Source: Microbispora hainanensis
GTDB lineage: Bacteria > Actinomycetota > Actinomycetes > Streptosporangiales > Streptosporangiaceae
Length of the DNA stretch: 64,000 nt
Direction: 5' to 3'
Assembly (NCBI RefSeq): GCF_006874475.1
Contig: NZ_VIRM01000020.1
Span: 1 to 64,000 of the forward strand
Below are positions 12,004 through 22,834 of the stretch, in pieces (the first letter of the stretch is position 1; each line of letters starts with the position of its first letter). Made by a program: the position numbers and the translations under genes. The notes under the pieces were generated by a model. That model ran no database searches. It saw nothing but the letters and a program-made list of their open reading frames with translations, and was not told the DNA's origin.

Positions 12004-13411
12004 TCATCACGTGCTTGACCCGTGTGTAGGCGTCGAGGCCGTATCGGGACAGGTCCTTGCCGGTGCCCGAGTGCTTGAAGCCGCCGTGCGGCATCTCGGG
12101 GATGATCACCTGGTGGCAGTTGACCCAGACCGCGCCGAAGTCCAGCGCGGCGGAAAGGCGCATGGCACGCCCGGTGTCCCTGGTCCACACGCTGGAGGCG
12201 AGCGCGTACTCGACCCCGTTGGCCAGGGCGACGGCCTCGTCCTCGTCCTCGAACGGCTGCACGGTCACGACCGGGCCGAAGATCTCCTGCTGCACGATCT
12301 CGTCGTCCTGCCGCACGTCGGCGACGACGGTCGGCGGGAAGAAGTAGCCGGGACGGTCGAGCCGGGCGCCGCCGGCGACCACCCGGGCGTGCGCGGGCAG
12401 CCGGTCGAGGAACCCGGCGACCCGCTCGGCCTGGGCGGCGTTGTTGGACGGGCCGAGGAACACGCCCTCGTCGGGGCCACCGACGGCGAGGGCCCGCGCC
12501 GCCTCGGCCAGCGCCTCGACGAACCCGTCGTAGGCGCGCCGCTCGACGAGCACGCGGGTGACGGCCGTGCAGTCCTGTCCCGTGTTGAAGAACGCCGCCT
12601 CGGCGATGCCGGCGGCCGCGGCGGCCGGGTCCACGTCGGCGAAGACCAGCGCGGGGGCCTTTCCGCCCAGCTCCAGGTGGACGTCCTTGAGGTCGCTCGC
12701 CGCGGCCGCCATCACCTCGGCTCCGGCCCGGGTCGAGCCGGTGATCGCCACCATCTCCACGCCGGGGTGCGCCACCAGCGCTCGGCCGGTGTCCCGGTCG
12801 CCGCACACCACGTTGACCACGCCGGGCGGCAGCACCCGGGCGCACAGCTCGCCGAGCAGCACGGTCGAGCCCGGCGTCGTGTCGGACGGCTTCAGCACCA
12901 GCGTGTTGCCCGCCGCCAGCGCCGGGCCGATCTTCCAGGCGGCCATCATCAGCGGGTAGTTCCACGGCGTCACCTGGGCGACGACGCCGATCGGCTCACG
13001 GCGTACGAACGAGGTGTGCCCCTCGGCGTACTCGGCGGCGCCGAGGCCCTCCAGCACCCGCGCCGCGCCGGCGAAATAGCGGATGGTGTCGATCGCCCCG
13101 CCCACGTCGACCCGCAGCGCGATGCCGCGCGGCTTGCCGGTCGCCCGCACCTCGGCCTCGGCCAGCGCCTCCCTGTTGTCCGCCATCAGATCGGCCAGCT
13201 CAAGGAGCAGCCGCTGACGCTCGGCCGGGGTGGTGCGCCGCCAGGTGCGCGCGGCCTCGGCGGCGGCCGTGACCGCGTGGTCCACGTCGGCGCCGCCCGA
13301 GCGGGCCGCCTGGGCGTACACCTTCTCGGTGGACGGGTCGACCAGGTCCATCCACTCTCCGGACGCCGGGTCGCGGCTCTCTCCGGCGATCACATTGCGA
13401 TACGTGTCCAC
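11990..13411 (-). CDS. NAD(P)-dependent aldehyde dehydrogenase, gamma-aminobutyraldehyde dehydrogenase type
   Basis: ALDH-superfamily enzyme of 473 residues oxidising an aldehyde to its acid. Visible motifs: PWNYPLMMAAWKIGPALAAG (cofactor/active-site Asn), ITGSTRAG, catalytic Glu in LELGGKAP, catalytic Cys in FNTGQDCTA, and EIFGPVVTV. Overall resemblance is to PatD/KauB-like aminobutyraldehyde dehydrogenases of polyamine breakdown; substrate is inferred. The GTG start has AAGGAG at 7 bases. No putrescine aminotransferase or oxidase gene is adjacent. The gene is monocistronic and converges with the sigma-factor gene. Confidence 0.9.
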   Translation of the reverse strand: MDTYRNVIAGESRDPASGEWMDLVDPSTEKVYAQAARSGGADVDHAVTAAAEAARTWRRTTPAERQRLLLELADLMADNREALAEAEVRATGKPRGIALRVDVGGAIDTIRYFAGAARVLEGLGAAEYAEGHTSFVRREPIGVVAQVTPWNYPLMMAAWKIGPALAAGNTLVLKPSDTTPGSTVLLGELCARVLPPGVVNVVCGDRDTGRALVAHPGVEMVAITGSTRAGAEVMAAAASDLKDVHLELGGKAPALVFADVDPAAAAAGIAEAAFFNTGQDCTAVTRVLVERRAYDGFVEALAEAARALAVGGPDEGVFLGPSNNAAQAERVAGFLDRLPAHARVVAGGARLDRPGYFFPPTVVADVRQDDEIVQQEIFGPVVTVQPFEDEDEAVALANGVEYALASSVWTRDTGRAMRLSAALDFGAVWVNCHQVIIPEMPHGGFKHSGTGKDLSRYGLDAYTRVKHVMISHT

Positions 13412-13525
13412 GACGGTCTCCTTGGAGTCGATTAGGGTCTCAGGCGGCGACGGAGGCGCGGTGAGCGCGGCGCGACAGCGGGCGGGTCGCCGAGGCCCAG
13501 GTCGGCCGGCACCGCGACCGCGGCT

Positions 13526-13654
13526 TTCGCCGACCCCTATGCGTTCGACGTGACACGCGAGAACAACGACCACATCACTTTCGGCAAGGGCAGCCCGCAC
13601 TTCTGCCTGGGCAACTCCCTCGCCTGGCCGACATCAGGACGAAGTTGGACCTGA
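13526..13654 (+). pseudogene. Cytochrome P450 C-terminal relic
   Basis: A short stretch reads FADPYAFDVTREN, then ITFGKGSPHFCLGNSLA: the P450 haem-binding loop (FGxGxxxCLG with the Cys ligand). After one frame change it continues as LADIRTKLDLT, the expected following helix. No other P450 sequence or start is present upstream, so this is a dead 3' fragment, including at least one frameshift. Confidence 0.6.
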
Positions 13655-13703
13655 CGCGGCGGGCGTCGCCCCCGAGCCCTGGCCTGACCGGCATCGGACG
13701 GCC

Positions 13704-13749
13704 CACAGCGGGGCCGGCGGGCTCTCATGGCCCCGCCGGCCCCGCTGTG
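13704..13749 (-). terminator. Perfect 18-bp stem-loop behind a small gene
   Basis: CACAGCGGGGCCGGCGGG pairs perfectly with its complement across a 10-base loop. It ends 11 bases from the stop codon of a leftward gene of 64 codons and can also stop rightward transcription from the P450 relic. Confidence 0.8.
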
Positions 13750-13760
13750 CTCCCGTACGG

Positions 13761-13955
13761 TTACCGGATCTCGCGGGACTCGCGATCGACATCGAGGCCC
13801 ATCGGGATCTCCGCCGTGTCTTCCAGACACGTGTCGTTCCCGTCCGGGGGTTCGCCGTCGGCCCGGGCGTCGCCTCGATGGCCCGGGCGGTCCGGGGTCT
13901 GTGCCCGTTCGTCCCGCGGGCGCCTGGGCCGGCCTGCCTGTTGGTCCTTCCGCAT
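13761..13955 (-). CDS. Small acidic-tailed protein of unknown function
   Basis: A gene of 64 codons with unusually good signals: GGAGGT placed 6 bases before ATG, GC-rich third positions throughout, a TAA stop, and a strong terminator immediately after. The product starts MRKDQQAGRPRRPRDERAQ, is Arg/Asp/Pro-rich and probably disordered in its first half, and ends with a more structured acidic tail (DTCLEDTAEIPMGLDVDRES). It has one Cys and no signal peptide or membrane segment. I do not recognise a family; a peptide precursor, anti-factor or small regulator are all possible. No modifying enzyme is adjacent. Confidence 0.5.
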   Translation of the reverse strand: MRKDQQAGRPRRPRDERAQTPDRPGHRGDARADGEPPDGNDTCLEDTAEIPMGLDVDRESREIR

Positions 13956-14053
13956 GAAGACACCTCCAGGATCATGGGAATGAGGGCCTCCTCGCCCTCG
14001 CATGGGTGCGTACCCGCTGCCCGGTATAGCGACGTGCGAAATCCGGCCTGCGC

Positions 14054-15064
14054 TCATCCGGTGCGAGTGAGGCCGGCGATCCGGCGGCCCAGCAGGGCCA
14101 GCAGACCCACCATGACCACGCCGACGGCCGCCAGACCGGCGCGGTCGGCCGCCGTGTCGGTGTTGGAGATCAGGCCGAACGCGGTGTGCGCGATCAGGGC
14201 GCCCGAGGCCAGGGCGAGACTGTGCCGGTCCGTCCAGAGGCCGCCGGCCGTCCAGCGGCGCAGGAGCCACGCGACGATGACCGCCAGCACGGCCGCCGCC
14301 GACATCGGCACGATCACCCATCCGCCGTGCGTGAAGGCGGGCCGGGTCGCGCCCCCGAAGGGGAACAGCGACGCCAGGAATGCGAAGGCGGCCACGGCGC
14401 CGAACACCCCGGCCACCGCGGGCGCGGGCGGGCTGACCGGGGATACGGCCCGGCGGAGCCTGAGCCGCAGCCCCACCGCCGTCAGCAGGGCCACGGCGGC
14501 CGCGCAGCCCGCGAGGATCGCCGGTGGCGCCTCATACCCGGGGTCGATGGCCGTCACCACCGTCACCCGCAGCAGCAGCGCGCCGAGGACGAAGACCGTC
14601 CCGGCCACCCAGGCGCCGAGCCTGCCCAGGTAGGGCCGGTCACGCAGCGACGGGACGATCAGATCGGTCAGCAGGATCGGGATCGCGGCGCTGAAGACCG
14701 CGTGATAGGGGATCTGCAGCTCGGCGTACGCGCTGTTCAGCCCCAGGATCCGGGGCGCCCACCCGGCGGCGCCGTAGATCGTGGGGCTGCTCAGCGCCTG
14801 CAGCGCCAGGCCCTCCTCGACGATGCCGTACGCGGCCCCGAGCAGCAGCACCCCGGTCCAGCCCGTCCCGGCCCGCCGCACCAGCTCGCGCACCAGGACG
14901 ACGCCCGCGCCGTATATCGGGACCCACAGCAGCAGGAGCCAGGCCATGCGCAGCGGCGGGTTGCCGAGGGTGAACTCGGCCACGAGCGGTGTGATCACCG
15001 CGAGGAGCAGTGCGGCCAGCCGGCCGCGCGTCTTGTTCGCCTTGTTCGTCTTCTTCGCCGTCAT
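14054..15064 (-). CDS. Polytopic membrane protein of unknown function
   Basis: Integral membrane protein of 336 residues with about nine hydrophobic helices after a Lys-rich start (MTAKKTNKANKTRGR). The segment AAYGIVEEGLALQAL, with an EE pair in a membrane helix, faintly recalls CPBP-type proteins, but the other CPBP motifs are not evident. The start is uncertain: an ATG 27 bases upstream is also in frame and neither has a good ribosome binding site. It is transcribed divergently from a two-component system. I do not recognise the family. Confidence 0.72.
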   Translation of the reverse strand: MTAKKTNKANKTRGRLAALLLAVITPLVAEFTLGNPPLRMAWLLLLWVPIYGAGVVLVRELVRRAGTGWTGVLLLGAAYGIVEEGLALQALSSPTIYGAAGWAPRILGLNSAYAELQIPYHAVFSAAIPILLTDLIVPSLRDRPYLGRLGAWVAGTVFVLGALLLRVTVVTAIDPGYEAPPAILAGCAAAVALLTAVGLRLRLRRAVSPVSPPAPAVAGVFGAVAAFAFLASLFPFGGATRPAFTHGGWVIVPMSAAAVLAVIVAWLLRRWTAGGLWTDRHSLALASGALIAHTAFGLISNTDTAADRAGLAAVGVVMVGLLALLGRRIAGLTRTG

Positions 15065-15196
15065 GCGCCCAGCGTGTTCCGCACCCAGCATGGACGTCTG
15101 CCGCCCCGGGCCCTGGCCGTGCCAACCCAGGTGACAACCCGGAGTCGACTTTGGTTGCTGCCGCCGCCGGGCCCGCCGTCATTACGCTGGGCGTCC

Positions 15197-16971: not shown

Positions 16972-17017
16972 CCGTTCCCGGCCCGCGTCGTTCATGCGGT
17001 GGGAGTTGATGCCGCAT

Positions 17018-17077
17018 GCGTTCATGCAGTGTGCGTTCATGCGGTGTGCGTTCCTGCGGTGTGCGTTCATGCGGTGT
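17018..17077. repeat. Four tandem 15-bp repeats between convergent genes
   Basis: GCGTTCATGCGGTGT repeated four times with single-base variants; a partial copy lies just upstream (from 16986). It occupies the gap between the response regulator and the FAD monooxygenase and just enters the 3' end of the latter. Confidence 0.85.
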
Positions 17078-18212
17078 GCCGCCGGTTCAGCCCGGACAGT
17101 TGCCAGGCCAGCCGCGTACGGACGGTGGGGATGCGGCCGGCCAGGGCAAGGACGAGGTTGCGCAGCACGCGGCGGCCGGCGGCGGCGGTGGCGAGCTTGG
17201 TGAGCCGCCCGGCGAGGGCGACCACCTGCTCTGCCTGGGGGAGCCGGGTGGCGGCATAGGAGTCGAGGAGGCTGTCCGGGCCGCCGTCGAGCACCCGGGC
17301 CAGCGTCTCACCCAGGTGTACGGCGTCGTCGATGCCCAGGTTCATGCCCTGGCCACCGGCGGGTGAGTGCACGTGGGCGGCGTCGCCGGCCAGCAGGATG
17401 CGGCCCCGGCGGTAGGTGTCGGCGATGCGGTGGTGGACCCTGAAGCGCGAGCTCCAGATCAGCTCCCGCACCCGCGCGGGCTCGGCCTTCGGGCCGCGGG
17501 TGTCGAGCAGGTGCTGCACCAGGGGGATGCCGGGCTCCTTGGGCGCCTCGTCCACGGTGGCGACGATGCGGTGCAGGCCGCCGGGCAGCGGGGCGACGAC
17601 GACCAGTCCGGCGGGCGAGAAGTACAGGATGACCTCGTTGCCGGGCACCCCGCCGGACAGGCGGACGTCGGCCAGCACGAACGACTCGGCGTAGGTGCCG
17701 CCGCTGAAGCCGATCCCCGCGCTCTGGCGGACGGTGCTGTGCATGCCGTCGGCGCCGATCAGATAGGCGGCGTGGATGCGCTGCCCGTCGTCCAGGGTGG
17801 CGGTGACACCCTCGGCGTCCTGCTTGATCCCGCTCACCCGGACGGGCCTGATCACTTTGCCGCCGAGCTCGTGCAGACGGGCCAGCAGGTGGGCCTCCGT
17901 GTCGGCCTGGGAGATCATCAGAGTGTACGGGTAGGCGGTCGGCAGACCGTCGAAGGGCACCGGCACCAGCACTCGGTCGCGGTCGCGGATGGTGAAGACC
18001 GGAGCGTGGATGCCCTGCGCGGCCAGCCGGTCCGCCACGCCGTACGGCTCCAGGACTTCCAGTGTGCGGGAGTGCACGACGGCAGCGCGAGAGGTGTTGG
18101 CGCCTCCCTCCTGCGCGTCCACGATCACGACCTTCCGGCCGTGCCGGCTCAGGACGATCGCGGCGGTCAGCCCGACGGGTCCGGCTCCCACGATGAGCAC
18201 TTCGGCGTTCAT
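17067..18212 (-). CDS. FAD-dependent aromatic-type monooxygenase
   Basis: Flavoprotein hydroxylase of 381 residues, PHBH/PheA-TetX class. Rossmann motif LIVGAGPVGLTAA at the N-terminus, the DG motif in AYLIGADGMHSTVR, and the FAD ribityl-binding segment LLAGDAAHVHSPAGGQGMN. The ATG was chosen for AAGGAG 6 bases upstream; a longer frame would cross the operators. It faces a TetR gene with three operator copies between them, the usual arrangement for a drug- or aromatic-compound-inducible detoxifying hydroxylase. The substrate is not deducible. Confidence 0.9.
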   Translation of the reverse strand: MNAEVLIVGAGPVGLTAAIVLSRHGRKVVIVDAQEGGANTSRAAVVHSRTLEVLEPYGVADRLAAQGIHAPVFTIRDRDRVLVPVPFDGLPTAYPYTLMISQADTEAHLLARLHELGGKVIRPVRVSGIKQDAEGVTATLDDGQRIHAAYLIGADGMHSTVRQSAGIGFSGGTYAESFVLADVRLSGGVPGNEVILYFSPAGLVVVAPLPGGLHRIVATVDEAPKEPGIPLVQHLLDTRGPKAEPARVRELIWSSRFRVHHRIADTYRRGRILLAGDAAHVHSPAGGQGMNLGIDDAVHLGETLARVLDGGPDSLLDSYAATRLPQAEQVVALAGRLTKLATAAAGRRVLRNLVLALAGRIPTVRTRLAWQLSGLNRRHTA

Positions 18213-20041: not shown

Positions 20042-22834
20042 TCACTCGTGTAGTCGTCGGGCTCTTCCGAGGCGGTGGTAGGTGAAGGCCCAGCGGTCTT
20101 TGCCTTCTTTGCGGCGGGTGTAGCGCTCGGGGTGCTGGTAGCGGTCGCGGTTGTGGAACTGGCAGGCCGGGCCGAGCAGTTTCAGGTCGGTGAGGCCGCC
20201 GGTGCTCCAGTTGTCGGCGTGGTCGATCTGGCACATGGTCGCGGGCAGGGGGCAGCCGTCGATCCAGCAGGTGGCGTAGCGGGCGTAGATGGCCCGTCGT
20301 TGGGCGGGGGTGGCCAGGCGGACCTTGCGGCCCATATCGAGGACCTGTCCGTCGGCGTTCATGACGATCCGCACCAACGTGCTGGTGCGGGCGAGGCGGT
20401 GCACGCTGGAGACGGGCAGCACCTGCCCGGTCGCCAGCAGCAACCCCGGCACCATCCCCAGCGACGCCCCCAACGACGCCCCCAACGACGCCCCCAGCGA
20501 CCCACCCAGTGCCGTCCCCAGCAATCCCGGTATGCCCTGGCCATGCCGGCCGTCCCCCGCAGGCCGAGACCCGGCGTGGGTGTGAGGTGCGGAGGCGTCC
20601 TCGGGAGGAGGATCCGGCCGGGTCGCCTCCGAAGGCGCTGCCTGTGATGGCGGTGCGTCCGAACCTGTCGCGTCCGAACCTGTCGCGTCCGAACCTGTCG
20701 CGTCCGAACCTGTCGCGCCCGAAGCCGTCGCGCCCCAAGGCGCTGTGTGCGAAGGCGCTGTGTCCGAATGCCTGCCACCGTCGGCAGGCCATGCTGACGC
20801 GCCCCGCCGGATGTGGGTTGCTCCAGAGCGGGCCGCGCCGCGATCGCAGCCATCGCCCTCTACGGCCGCGGTCTCGTCGCCCTCGGCAGAGGCAGTGCTC
20901 GCAGTCTCATCGCCCTCGGTGGAGGCGGCGTTCGCGGTGTGGTCGCCCTCGACAGAGGCGGTGCTTGCGGTGTCGCGCGGCTTGCACTCGCCGGGCCGCT
21001 GCTCGCCGGCCCTGCGCTCACCGGCCCTGCGCTCACCGGCCCTGCGCTCACCGGCCCTGCGCTCACCGGCCCTGCGCTCACCGACTCCGCAGTCGCGAGA
21101 CTCCTCATCGGCAAGTCCGGCCGCGGCGTCGACGGAACCACGGGCAGGGGCGAGGTCGGTGGCGGGGGCGGTGGCGGGGGCCGCCTCGGCCGCGTCCACA
21201 CCACTGACGTCGGCCTCTGGGATATCGCAGGCATCGGCGCAGGGGTCGGCGGCGGCTTCCTCGCTCGCGCCGTCGGCGCTCCCCGCACCGGCACCTGCCT
21301 TGGCCTCGGCAATGTCGCGCCCGTCCGCGACCTCGGGGGCGTCGATGCCGCCCGCAGCACCGGGGTCGCCCATCGTGCCGGAGACGGTGTCGTCAGCCTG
21401 GCTCGGGTCGTCGGCGCTTCCGGCACAGCCGGGGGCGTAGTCGCGGGTGTCGTCGGCTTCGGCGGGAGCGGGATCGGCGGGGTCGTCGGCGGGGTCGTCG
21501 GCGGGGTCGTCGGCGGGGTCTTCGTCCGGGTCTTCGGTGGCCGGGTCAGCGACGGGGTCGGTGGGGAGGGATTCGGCGCTGACCACGACGAGGAGTTCGG
21601 TGACGATCTGCTGCTCCAGCGCGGCGATGAGGGCGTCCGCTTGGCGCTCCGTCAGCGTGCGGTCATCACCGTCGGCCTTCTTCTTGGCGTACTCCTGCAA
21701 CAGGGTCATCAGGCGGGCGCCGGGTTCACGGGGAATGTAGAACTCCCCTTCCACGCCGCCGCCCTTACCGGGCCGGACCCGCAGGAACCGCCGCCCGTAA
21801 TCGGCCTGCTCATCGCGCTCTTCGCCGTCGGGGTCGAGCACCGCCCGTAGATGGCGGCCGGCTTTGGCCACCTCCGCCGCACCGGCTTTGCCCGCCAGCT
21901 CCACCAGGATCGGCTCCGCCAGTGAGGCCTGCTCATCGGTCAGCCCGGCGACAGCGGCGCAGATGGCCTCCACCACCCCCGCCGCCAACTCACCCACGGC
22001 GAACTTCTCCCGCACCTGAGGGAGGCGCGGCAGCTCAGCCCCCAACGTGAGCAGGCGGCCCGCACCCCCCACCGTCATCCCGGCGGCGGTACGCAACCAC
22101 GACCTGGTGGAGGCATGCCCATGCTGCTTGGCCTGACCTGCACGATGGACCCGGCCCACCCGGTCGGCCAGGGCGCACGTGATCCGATCCCGGGCGAACA
22201 GCAACTCCTCCGCCTCAGCCAGACAAGTGTCCACATCGTCGGGAAGCGGCGCCAGCGCCAGCTCTTGCGCCACCTCACGAACACACCCCACCACCACCCA
22301 CGACGACCGCACACGGCCGCGACCACGACCACCCACACCGGAAGCACCCGCACCAGCGCCACCCGCGCCAGCAGCGTCGGCACCATCAGCATCCCTACGG
22401 GCGGCATTCGGGTCAGAAGCACCAGCACCCTCGGCATCCCCACGCGCGGCATCCCCACGCGCGGCATCCCCACGCGCGGCATCCCCACGCGCGGCATCCC
22501 CACGCGCGGCATCCGCGCCAGCGCCGTCTGCACCAGAGGCAGTCCCACGGGCGGTATCCGCGCTGTCGGCCTCTGCGCCGTCGGCAAGCCTGCCAGCGGT
22601 GTCCGCGCCCGGGCCGGCTGTGCTCCCACTATCGGGCGCACCGTTGCTCGCGGATGTGCTCCCGCTCTGGCTCGCATGCTGCGGCGGCTCGAAGCCGATG
22701 ATCGGGAAGGGCTCGCGGGCGGACGAGCCGTCGGACGACCACAAGGGGGAATTGGCGATCAGACGGTCCCACCACTCACCGTCGCCATCGTTCGAATGAC
22801 GAAGGCGCTCGGGATCGATGTCGAACAGATCCAT
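20042..22834 (-). CDS. 13E12/DUF222-family HNH endonuclease inflated by five internal tandem repeats
   Basis: A protein of 930 residues, about twice the usual 400-550 for this family. The DUF222 region (LAEAEELLFARDRITCALAD, AGMTVGGAGRLLTLGAELPR) occupies roughly residues 185-410. The HNH nuclease motif is at the end (CWIDGCPLPATMCQIDHADN, then LLGPACQFHNR). Between and before them lie long Ala/Asp/Gly-rich stretches built from tandem units: AARGD x5, DPAD x4, GERRA x5-6, GSDAT x4, LGAS x3-4. All unit lengths are multiples of three, so the frame is kept. The ATG follows GGAGGTG closely. Family members are abundant, repeat-associated genes of uncertain function in actinobacteria. The repeats may make a long disordered linker. 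Confidence 0.88.
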   Translation of the reverse strand: MDLFDIDPERLRHSNDGDGEWWDRLIANSPLWSSDGSSAREPFPIIGFEPPQHASQSGSTSASNGAPDSGSTAGPGADTAGRLADGAEADSADTARGTASGADGAGADAARGDAARGDAARGDAARGDAARGDAEGAGASDPNAARRDADGADAAGAGGAGAGASGVGGRGRGRVRSSWVVVGCVREVAQELALAPLPDDVDTCLAEAEELLFARDRITCALADRVGRVHRAGQAKQHGHASTRSWLRTAAGMTVGGAGRLLTLGAELPRLPQVREKFAVGELAAGVVEAICAAVAGLTDEQASLAEPILVELAGKAGAAEVAKAGRHLRAVLDPDGEERDEQADYGRRFLRVRPGKGGGVEGEFYIPREPGARLMTLLQEYAKKKADGDDRTLTERQADALIAALEQQIVTELLVVVSAESLPTDPVADPATEDPDEDPADDPADDPADDPADPAPAEADDTRDYAPGCAGSADDPSQADDTVSGTMGDPGAAGGIDAPEVADGRDIAEAKAGAGAGSADGASEEAAADPCADACDIPEADVSGVDAAEAAPATAPATDLAPARGSVDAAAGLADEESRDCGVGERRAGERRAGERRAGERRAGERRAGEQRPGECKPRDTASTASVEGDHTANAASTEGDETASTASAEGDETAAVEGDGCDRGAARSGATHIRRGASAWPADGGRHSDTAPSHTAPWGATASGATGSDATGSDATGSDATGSDAPPSQAAPSEATRPDPPPEDASAPHTHAGSRPAGDGRHGQGIPGLLGTALGGSLGASLGASLGASLGMVPGLLLATGQVLPVSSVHRLARTSTLVRIVMNADGQVLDMGRKVRLATPAQRRAIYARYATCWIDGCPLPATMCQIDHADNWSTGGLTDLKLLGPACQFHNRDRYQHPERYTRRKEGKDRWAFTYHRLGRARRLHE
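20459..20506 (-). repeat. 12-bp minisatellite, four units (encodes LGAS)
   Basis: Units of CAACGACGCCCC with minor variants inside the HNH gene, just before the nuclease domain. Confidence 0.85.
20655..20729 (-). repeat. 15-bp minisatellite, four exact units plus one decayed (encodes GSDAT)
   Basis: GCGTCCGAACCTGTC repeated exactly four times, then GCGCCCGAAGCCGTC. Confidence 0.9.
20999..21088 (-). repeat. 15-bp minisatellite, six units (encodes GERRA)
   Basis: GCGCTCACCGGCCCT four times exactly, flanked by one variant unit at each side. The unit is unrelated to the other repeats in this gene. Confidence 0.9.
21479..21526 (-). repeat. 12-bp minisatellite, three exact units plus one variant (encodes DPAD)
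   Basis: GGGGTCGTCGGC repeated in tandem within the acidic linker of the HNH protein. Confidence 0.88.
22438..22512 (-). repeat. 15-bp minisatellite, five exact units (encodes AARGD)
   Basis: CCCCACGCGCGGCAT repeated five times without change, in the N-terminal part of the HNH gene. Perfect identity suggests recent expansion. Confidence 0.92.

Follow-up and report, generated by a model that had tools for sequence, protein, structure and literature searches.

A candidate orphan small-protein gene of Microbispora with a conserved translation start and a near-neutral body

Lineage-restricted small disordered proteins are a recognised class in bacteria. RiPP and lanthipeptide precursors are another kind of short gene product, consisting of a leader and a modifiable core, with the modification enzymes encoded nearby. 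For the ends of transcription units, GC-rich, I-shaped intrinsic terminators without a U-tract have been described in mycobacteria in PMC12288462, which also cites work finding the U-tract to be required.

A small open reading frame (ORF) touching on all three was found in the window, by which is meant the whole 64,000-nucleotide stretch of Microbispora hainanensis DNA that was analysed. Related copies are referred to by genome: G000 is the window's own genome, G006 is Microbispora rosea ATCC 12950, and these two with G011 carry the close orthologues, G002 carrying the most distant copy. The features discussed below are as follows.

13761 to 13955, minus strand: small ORF of 64 codons plus TAA, encoding a basic disordered N-terminal half and an acidic tail, with homologues in three other Microbispora genomes
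13962 to 13967, minus strand: Shine-Dalgarno sequence GGAGGT, separated from the ATG by six bases and unchanged across the four homologues
13943 to 13973, minus strand: conserved translation-initiation block; over its 31 bases the most distant homologue differs at no more than two positions (G000-G002, permutation p 0.02)
13982 to 13999, minus strand: weak 5'-UTR hairpin, GAGGGC/GCCCTC; G002 has a similar stem with other bases
14010 to 14027, minus strand: ATACC-N7-GGGTAC element located where the promoter is likely to be, with ATAC and GGGTA invariant in the four genomes and no sigma-70 match
13704 to 13749, no strand assigned: perfect 18-bp hairpin with a 10-base loop and no U-tract; the same 18-bp arms lie beside an intact P450 gene in G011
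13523 to 13624, plus strand: P450 fragment including the heme-binding loop, identical in 33 of 34 residues (97%) to the intact P450 of G011 (L012, 9954-11201)

The small ORF, its product and its relatives

A first-pass annotation had described a 64-codon ORF with a TAA stop, and it is indeed present on the minus strand from 13955 to 13761. Its length carries no weight, because a frame scan found all six frames to be stop-free over its 192 bases; open frames of about 64 codons are commonplace in this 73% G+C DNA. The biased codon use that had been attributed to it is absent, GC at codon positions 1, 2 and 3 being 0.81, 0.55 and 0.83 and the synonymous-codon score being 0.017 bits per codon, versus 0.07 to 0.41 in 16 window genes; codon use in the small ORF is not gene-like by this test. 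The description of a disordered basic half followed by an acidic tail with a single Cys held up better, with a pI of 11.5 for the N-terminal half, one Cys in the tail and no predicted secondary structure; AlphaFold2 gave neither helix nor strand, a pTM of 0.11, and pLDDT above 70 at no residue. The product had no match in Pfam, NCBIfam, PHROGs, PADLOC or PDB sequence, and the G002 copy had a single sub-threshold Pfam match (11 residues, E 0.057).

Relatives occur in 4 of 15 Microbispora genomes, the window genome included. Protein searches matched 3 of 60 relatives, among them the window's own genome, and gave three clear matches and eight weak rows in the 15 genus genomes. The fourth, more divergent copy, which lies at a different chromosomal place in G002, was added by a search with the leader DNA (all 15 genus genomes matched at E <=1, four of them at <=2.7e-10 and the rest at >=0.037). 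A four-member profile run against 341 family genomes gave 17 at E <=0.01, where only the four known copies are convincing (<=6.8e-14; the others 9.2e-5 to 9.4e-3), and a covariance model built on the leader matched 50 of 338 family genomes at E <=1, four of them strong (<=2.5e-22) and the next at 1.4e-4. With the G002 protein as query, 18 of 338 family genomes were matched at E <=0.01, as were 12 of 394 class genomes. Of these only G002 itself and G006 (3.0e-7) are more than weak matches: the best others in the family stand at 3.9e-4, with G011 at 0.0028 and no report of the copy in the window, and the best in the class, at 4.4e-5, lies within a 605-codon frame. In genome contigs of 84,980 species a single-protein search had no match and a profile search found one locus, that of M. 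rosea.

The weaker matches were rejected on reading. The weak family-profile (14) and genus (8) rows are arginine/proline-rich stretches, several with stops or in other frames of long ORFs, as judged from the translations of 11 of the 14 and 7 of the 8 (L039, L043, L046 and L005 being left out). None of six weak matches to the G002 protein that were read has the start block, and none of 13 leader-model matches read beyond the four true ones has a Shine-Dalgarno followed by M-[GR]-K-D; an extra pattern match in G003 is the start of an unrelated 111-residue protein. Nothing was found in viral contigs, phages or plasmids, and a phage or plasmid origin was rejected for lack of a match. Thus convincing relatives outside Microbispora were absent from the 341 family genomes, the 394-genome class sample, the contigs of 84,980 species, and the phages, plasmids and viral contigs. 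Because most species are without it, the gene is, on this distribution, non-essential to the genus.

Conservation of the start region and drift of the body

The Shine-Dalgarno GGAGGT had been noted six bases before the ATG, and it is found there, at 13962 to 13967. All four homologues keep the frame open behind a Shine-Dalgarno and an ATG, as expected of a coding sequence. Of the "textbook signals" claimed for the gene, this sequence and the downstream hairpin exist, but their force is weakened by the chance level of the former, the missing U-tract of the latter, and the failure to find a sigma-70-type promoter upstream of the small ORF. GGAGGT-N4-9-ATG occurs three times in the 64-kb window versus 1.9 expected by chance, and 15 Shine-Dalgarno-like matches in the window precede frames of 30 to 130 codons, many of them evidently within other genes.

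The best-kept DNA block reads GATCCTGGAGGTGTCT-[TC]-CATGGGGAAGG and onward. Between G006 and G002, 43 bases around the Shine-Dalgarno and ATG contain 2 mismatches (permutation p 0.003), and 43 of 170 aligned bases differ overall; the same test gave p 0.048 for G011-G002 and was not significant among the close orthologues G000, G011 and G006. At the protein level, the alignment gives identities to the window protein of 85% for G011, 72% for G006 and 43% for G002, and the 16 residues invariant across the four proteins all lie in the first 30. The best-kept stretch is the translation start region with about 30 codons, a Lys/Arg/Pro-rich N-terminus that ends in PD-[RC]-PGHR and has one gap, of 3 bases. 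Larger gaps (23 codons, and a few at the end) count for little, because alignment as protein makes them whole codons. Beyond the stop of the window and G011 proteins, the tails of G006 and G002 continue with a common motif, E-[IV]-E-[DE]-PPEY, which suggests that the protein in the window may have been shortened.

Over the whole small ORF, dN/dS is 0.84 (0.24-3.95) for G000-G011, 0.93 (0.36-3.10) for G000-G006 and 0.79 (0.32-2.03) for G011-G006; versus G002 it is 0.57 (0.18-1.30) for G000, 0.78 (0.35-1.89) for G011 and 0.43 (0.23-0.87) for G006. Ratios near 1 in relatives had been named beforehand as evidence against a gene, and the close three, with their wide intervals, come near to that outcome, the G006-G002 pair alone departing from it. 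For comparison, two neighbouring genes have dS of 0.107 to 0.163 and dN/dS of 0.14 to 0.42, and a third control gene has dS of 0.075 to 0.137 among the close three and 0.456 to 0.475 to G002 (0.475 for G006-G002). The overall divergence of the small ORF matches these neutral yardsticks (other genes having dS of 0.075-0.163), so that among close relatives the ORF taken whole is evolving near the neutral rate. The exception is the N-terminal 30 codons between G000 and G011, where 1 non-synonymous change in 67.7 sites compares with 3 synonymous changes in 25.3. A frame-by-frame substitution test did not single out the coding frame: with three orthologues it reached z 0.88 (90/500 shuffles), and another plus frame reached z 2.36 but contains stops; with the four N-termini the coding frame reached z 1.67 (24/500) and a minus frame z 2.04. 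By these comparisons, the start region is the main target of selection and the first 30 or so residues are under weak selection, the acidic tail varying in sequence and length.

These rates bear on the most serious alternative, that of a near-neutral or decaying ORF, a once or never useful frame that lies in variable intergenic DNA and has stayed open through 73% G+C. Besides the dN/dS of 0.79 to 0.93 in close orthologues, a divergence equal to the neutral yardsticks and the opening of all six frames, it would account for the earlier stops of G000 and G011 relative to G006, whose tail motif EIE-[DE]-PPEY recurs in G002, for the remnant state of the adjoining P450, and for the small number of carriers. 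However, the start block is kept beyond chance in three comparisons with G002 (p 0.003-0.05), the interval on the G006-G002 ratio lies below 1, and the Shine-Dalgarno, ATG and open frame persist in every copy. Decay is accordingly given real but lesser weight, and an orphan small-protein gene is favoured over it.

The start-block conservation takes in synonymous positions, and G002 has a counterpart of the upstream stem made of other bases; both would suit a second alternative, in which the functional part is the transcript, a small regulatory or dual-function RNA made up of the conserved 43-base start region and that stem. However, the leader folds with no excess stability over shuffles (z -1.08 to 0.33), which makes support for the 5'-UTR hairpin weak, Rfam gave no match at or above gathering score over 13400 to 14200 (the best match being far below its own), and the conserved block is what translation initiation would keep. 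An RNA function is improbable on this balance. Slightly less probable still is a Microbispora-specific dual-function element in which the 43-base start region would act as a regulated translation switch or base-pairing RNA and the disordered basic peptide that it controls as a small regulator, the whole being inherited as a compact unit at variable chromosomal sites. The leader as a whole has 7 to 9 changes in 72 to 73 bases among the close three, near the neutral rate. At the likely promoter position a sigma-B-type promoter, whose consensus is GNNT with GGGTAY, was considered and rejected by eye; the GGGTAY motif is there, but no GNNT lies at the right spacing.

The P450 remnant, the variable site and the downstream hairpin

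The P450 relic that had been reported beside the small ORF is real, and because the fragment is 97% identical to its intact relative, the loss of the window P450 was recent. In G011 the small ORF is convergent with the intact P450; a glutamine-synthetase-like gene comes after the P450, and an amino-acid permease lies further along. The gene next to the small ORF on its own strand is an aldehyde dehydrogenase both in the window and in G006, whereas the G002 copy stands between a Ppx/GppA gene before it and a GNAT acetyltransferase after it. A membrane-protein-like gene at 14054 to 15091, with no Pfam match, lies upstream of the small ORF in the window and G011, and also in G006 with other genes between. 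It has clear orthologues, at 87-90% identity, in six other genus genomes, and there the 1.5 kb downstream is different and contains no small ORF. Because the sequence downstream of these orthologues differs between genomes, the small-ORF site is, by synteny, a variable one. Almost every one of the Microbispora genomes examined has something different past the 14054-15091 orthologues (L088-L096), in the manner of an insertion hotspot. Elsewhere in the window, a 15-base tandem repeat of about six copies lies between response regulator and FAD monooxygenase genes (16989-17079), and tandem repeats with units of 12 to 33 bases cluster in a stretch with few clear genes (20456-22514), among them a perfect 15-base repeat of 5.5 copies (22432-22514).

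The intact P450 adjoining the G011 copy, together with the size, charge pattern and single tail Cys of the product, recalls a RiPP precursor, with an N-terminal leader and a Cys-bearing C-terminal core modified by neighbours such as the P450; the first-pass annotation had likened the product to a precursor or a small regulator. A precursor peptide is disfavoured, and seems very unlikely, because neither the tail nor its Cys is conserved and RiPP enzymes were not seen nearby: Ser stands in place of Cys43 in G011 and G006 alike, G002 is without most of that region, and conservation is confined to the half that would be the leader. No RiPP-type modification enzyme or transporter was found among the Pfam-scanned neighbours in the window, G011, G006 and G002, a scan covering part of the ORFs there. 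Furthermore, the G011 P450 keeps company with the glutamine-synthetase-like gene and permease, and it has no match in the 19.5 kb around the G006 copy or the 19.9 kb around the G002 copy.

The 18-bp perfect hairpin claimed after the stop codon was recovered, beginning 11 bases past the TAA. It is the second longest of five perfect hairpins (>=12 bp, loop <=12) in the window and, with its flanks, has a folding energy of -57.1 kcal/mol (z -6.0). The longest perfect hairpin of the window, with 20-bp arms and a 9-base loop, is at 76 to 124. A stable GC hairpin near a stop codon is what an intrinsic terminator would show, and no U-tract follows the 13704-13749 stem. The locus sequences show the hairpin after the stop in the window and G011 copies and degraded or largely lost in G006; in G002 an inverted repeat is readable by eye past the stop. 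The window hairpin is probably a terminator acting in both directions, set between the small ORF and the P450 that once converged on it. A leader-peptide attenuator, in which ribosome progress on the small ORF would decide termination at the hairpin before a downstream gene, could draw on the same-strand genes that follow in the window, G006 and G002, but is as doubtful as the precursor, for the downstream gene is not conserved among the four copies (in G011 it is the convergent P450 on the opposite strand), the small ORF is without a run of one amino acid's codons, and G006 has largely lost the hairpin yet has the same kind of aldehyde dehydrogenase downstream.

The favoured reading and its place among known systems

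We judge it about an even chance that the small ORF represents an orphan small-protein gene, taxonomically confined to Microbispora, translated, disordered and fast-evolving, with a transcription unit of its own. Translation is favoured because the start region and frame are kept, and a weak or drifting function because the body is near neutral. The earlier proposal of a small gene thus stands as the most likely reading, given the start region and frame kept in four species, and its precursor component is left unsupported. Under the orphan-gene reading, a short transcription unit would run from the conserved leader (about 13956-14030) to the hairpin, and a strong ribosome-binding site would direct synthesis of an intrinsically disordered, highly charged protein of 61 to 76 residues. 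The basic N-terminal half might make charge-based contacts with a cellular partner, such as nucleic acid, the ribosome or some acidic protein; a dispensable solubilising segment is the role proposed for the tail. Promoter, termination, translation and partner binding are all proposed here from sequence.

If translated, the ORF would add one undescribed small-protein family to a genus noted for natural products, and would be a compact test case of a strong start signal persisting while the protein drifts. It also carries a warning: where DNA is very GC-rich, the combination of a Shine-Dalgarno, an open frame and a hairpin is only weak evidence of a gene.

In comparison with known systems, the small ORF resembles lanthipeptide and RiPP precursors in size, in its disordered leader-like half and, in the window copy only, in its tail Cys; it differs in that no modification enzyme was seen nearby and in its unconserved Cys and tail. 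The mycobacterial I-shaped terminators, as PMC12288462 presents them, are similar to the present hairpin in being GC-rich, in having no U-tract and in lying less than 50 bases from the stop, and they differ in that here the hairpin is a predicted terminator, probably common to the small ORF and the convergent P450. The closest likeness under the favoured reading is to orphan small disordered bacterial proteins: there is no named family for the Microbispora ORF among the databases searched, and it would be like them in being short, charged, domain-free and fast-evolving, with few relatives and a transcription unit of its own.
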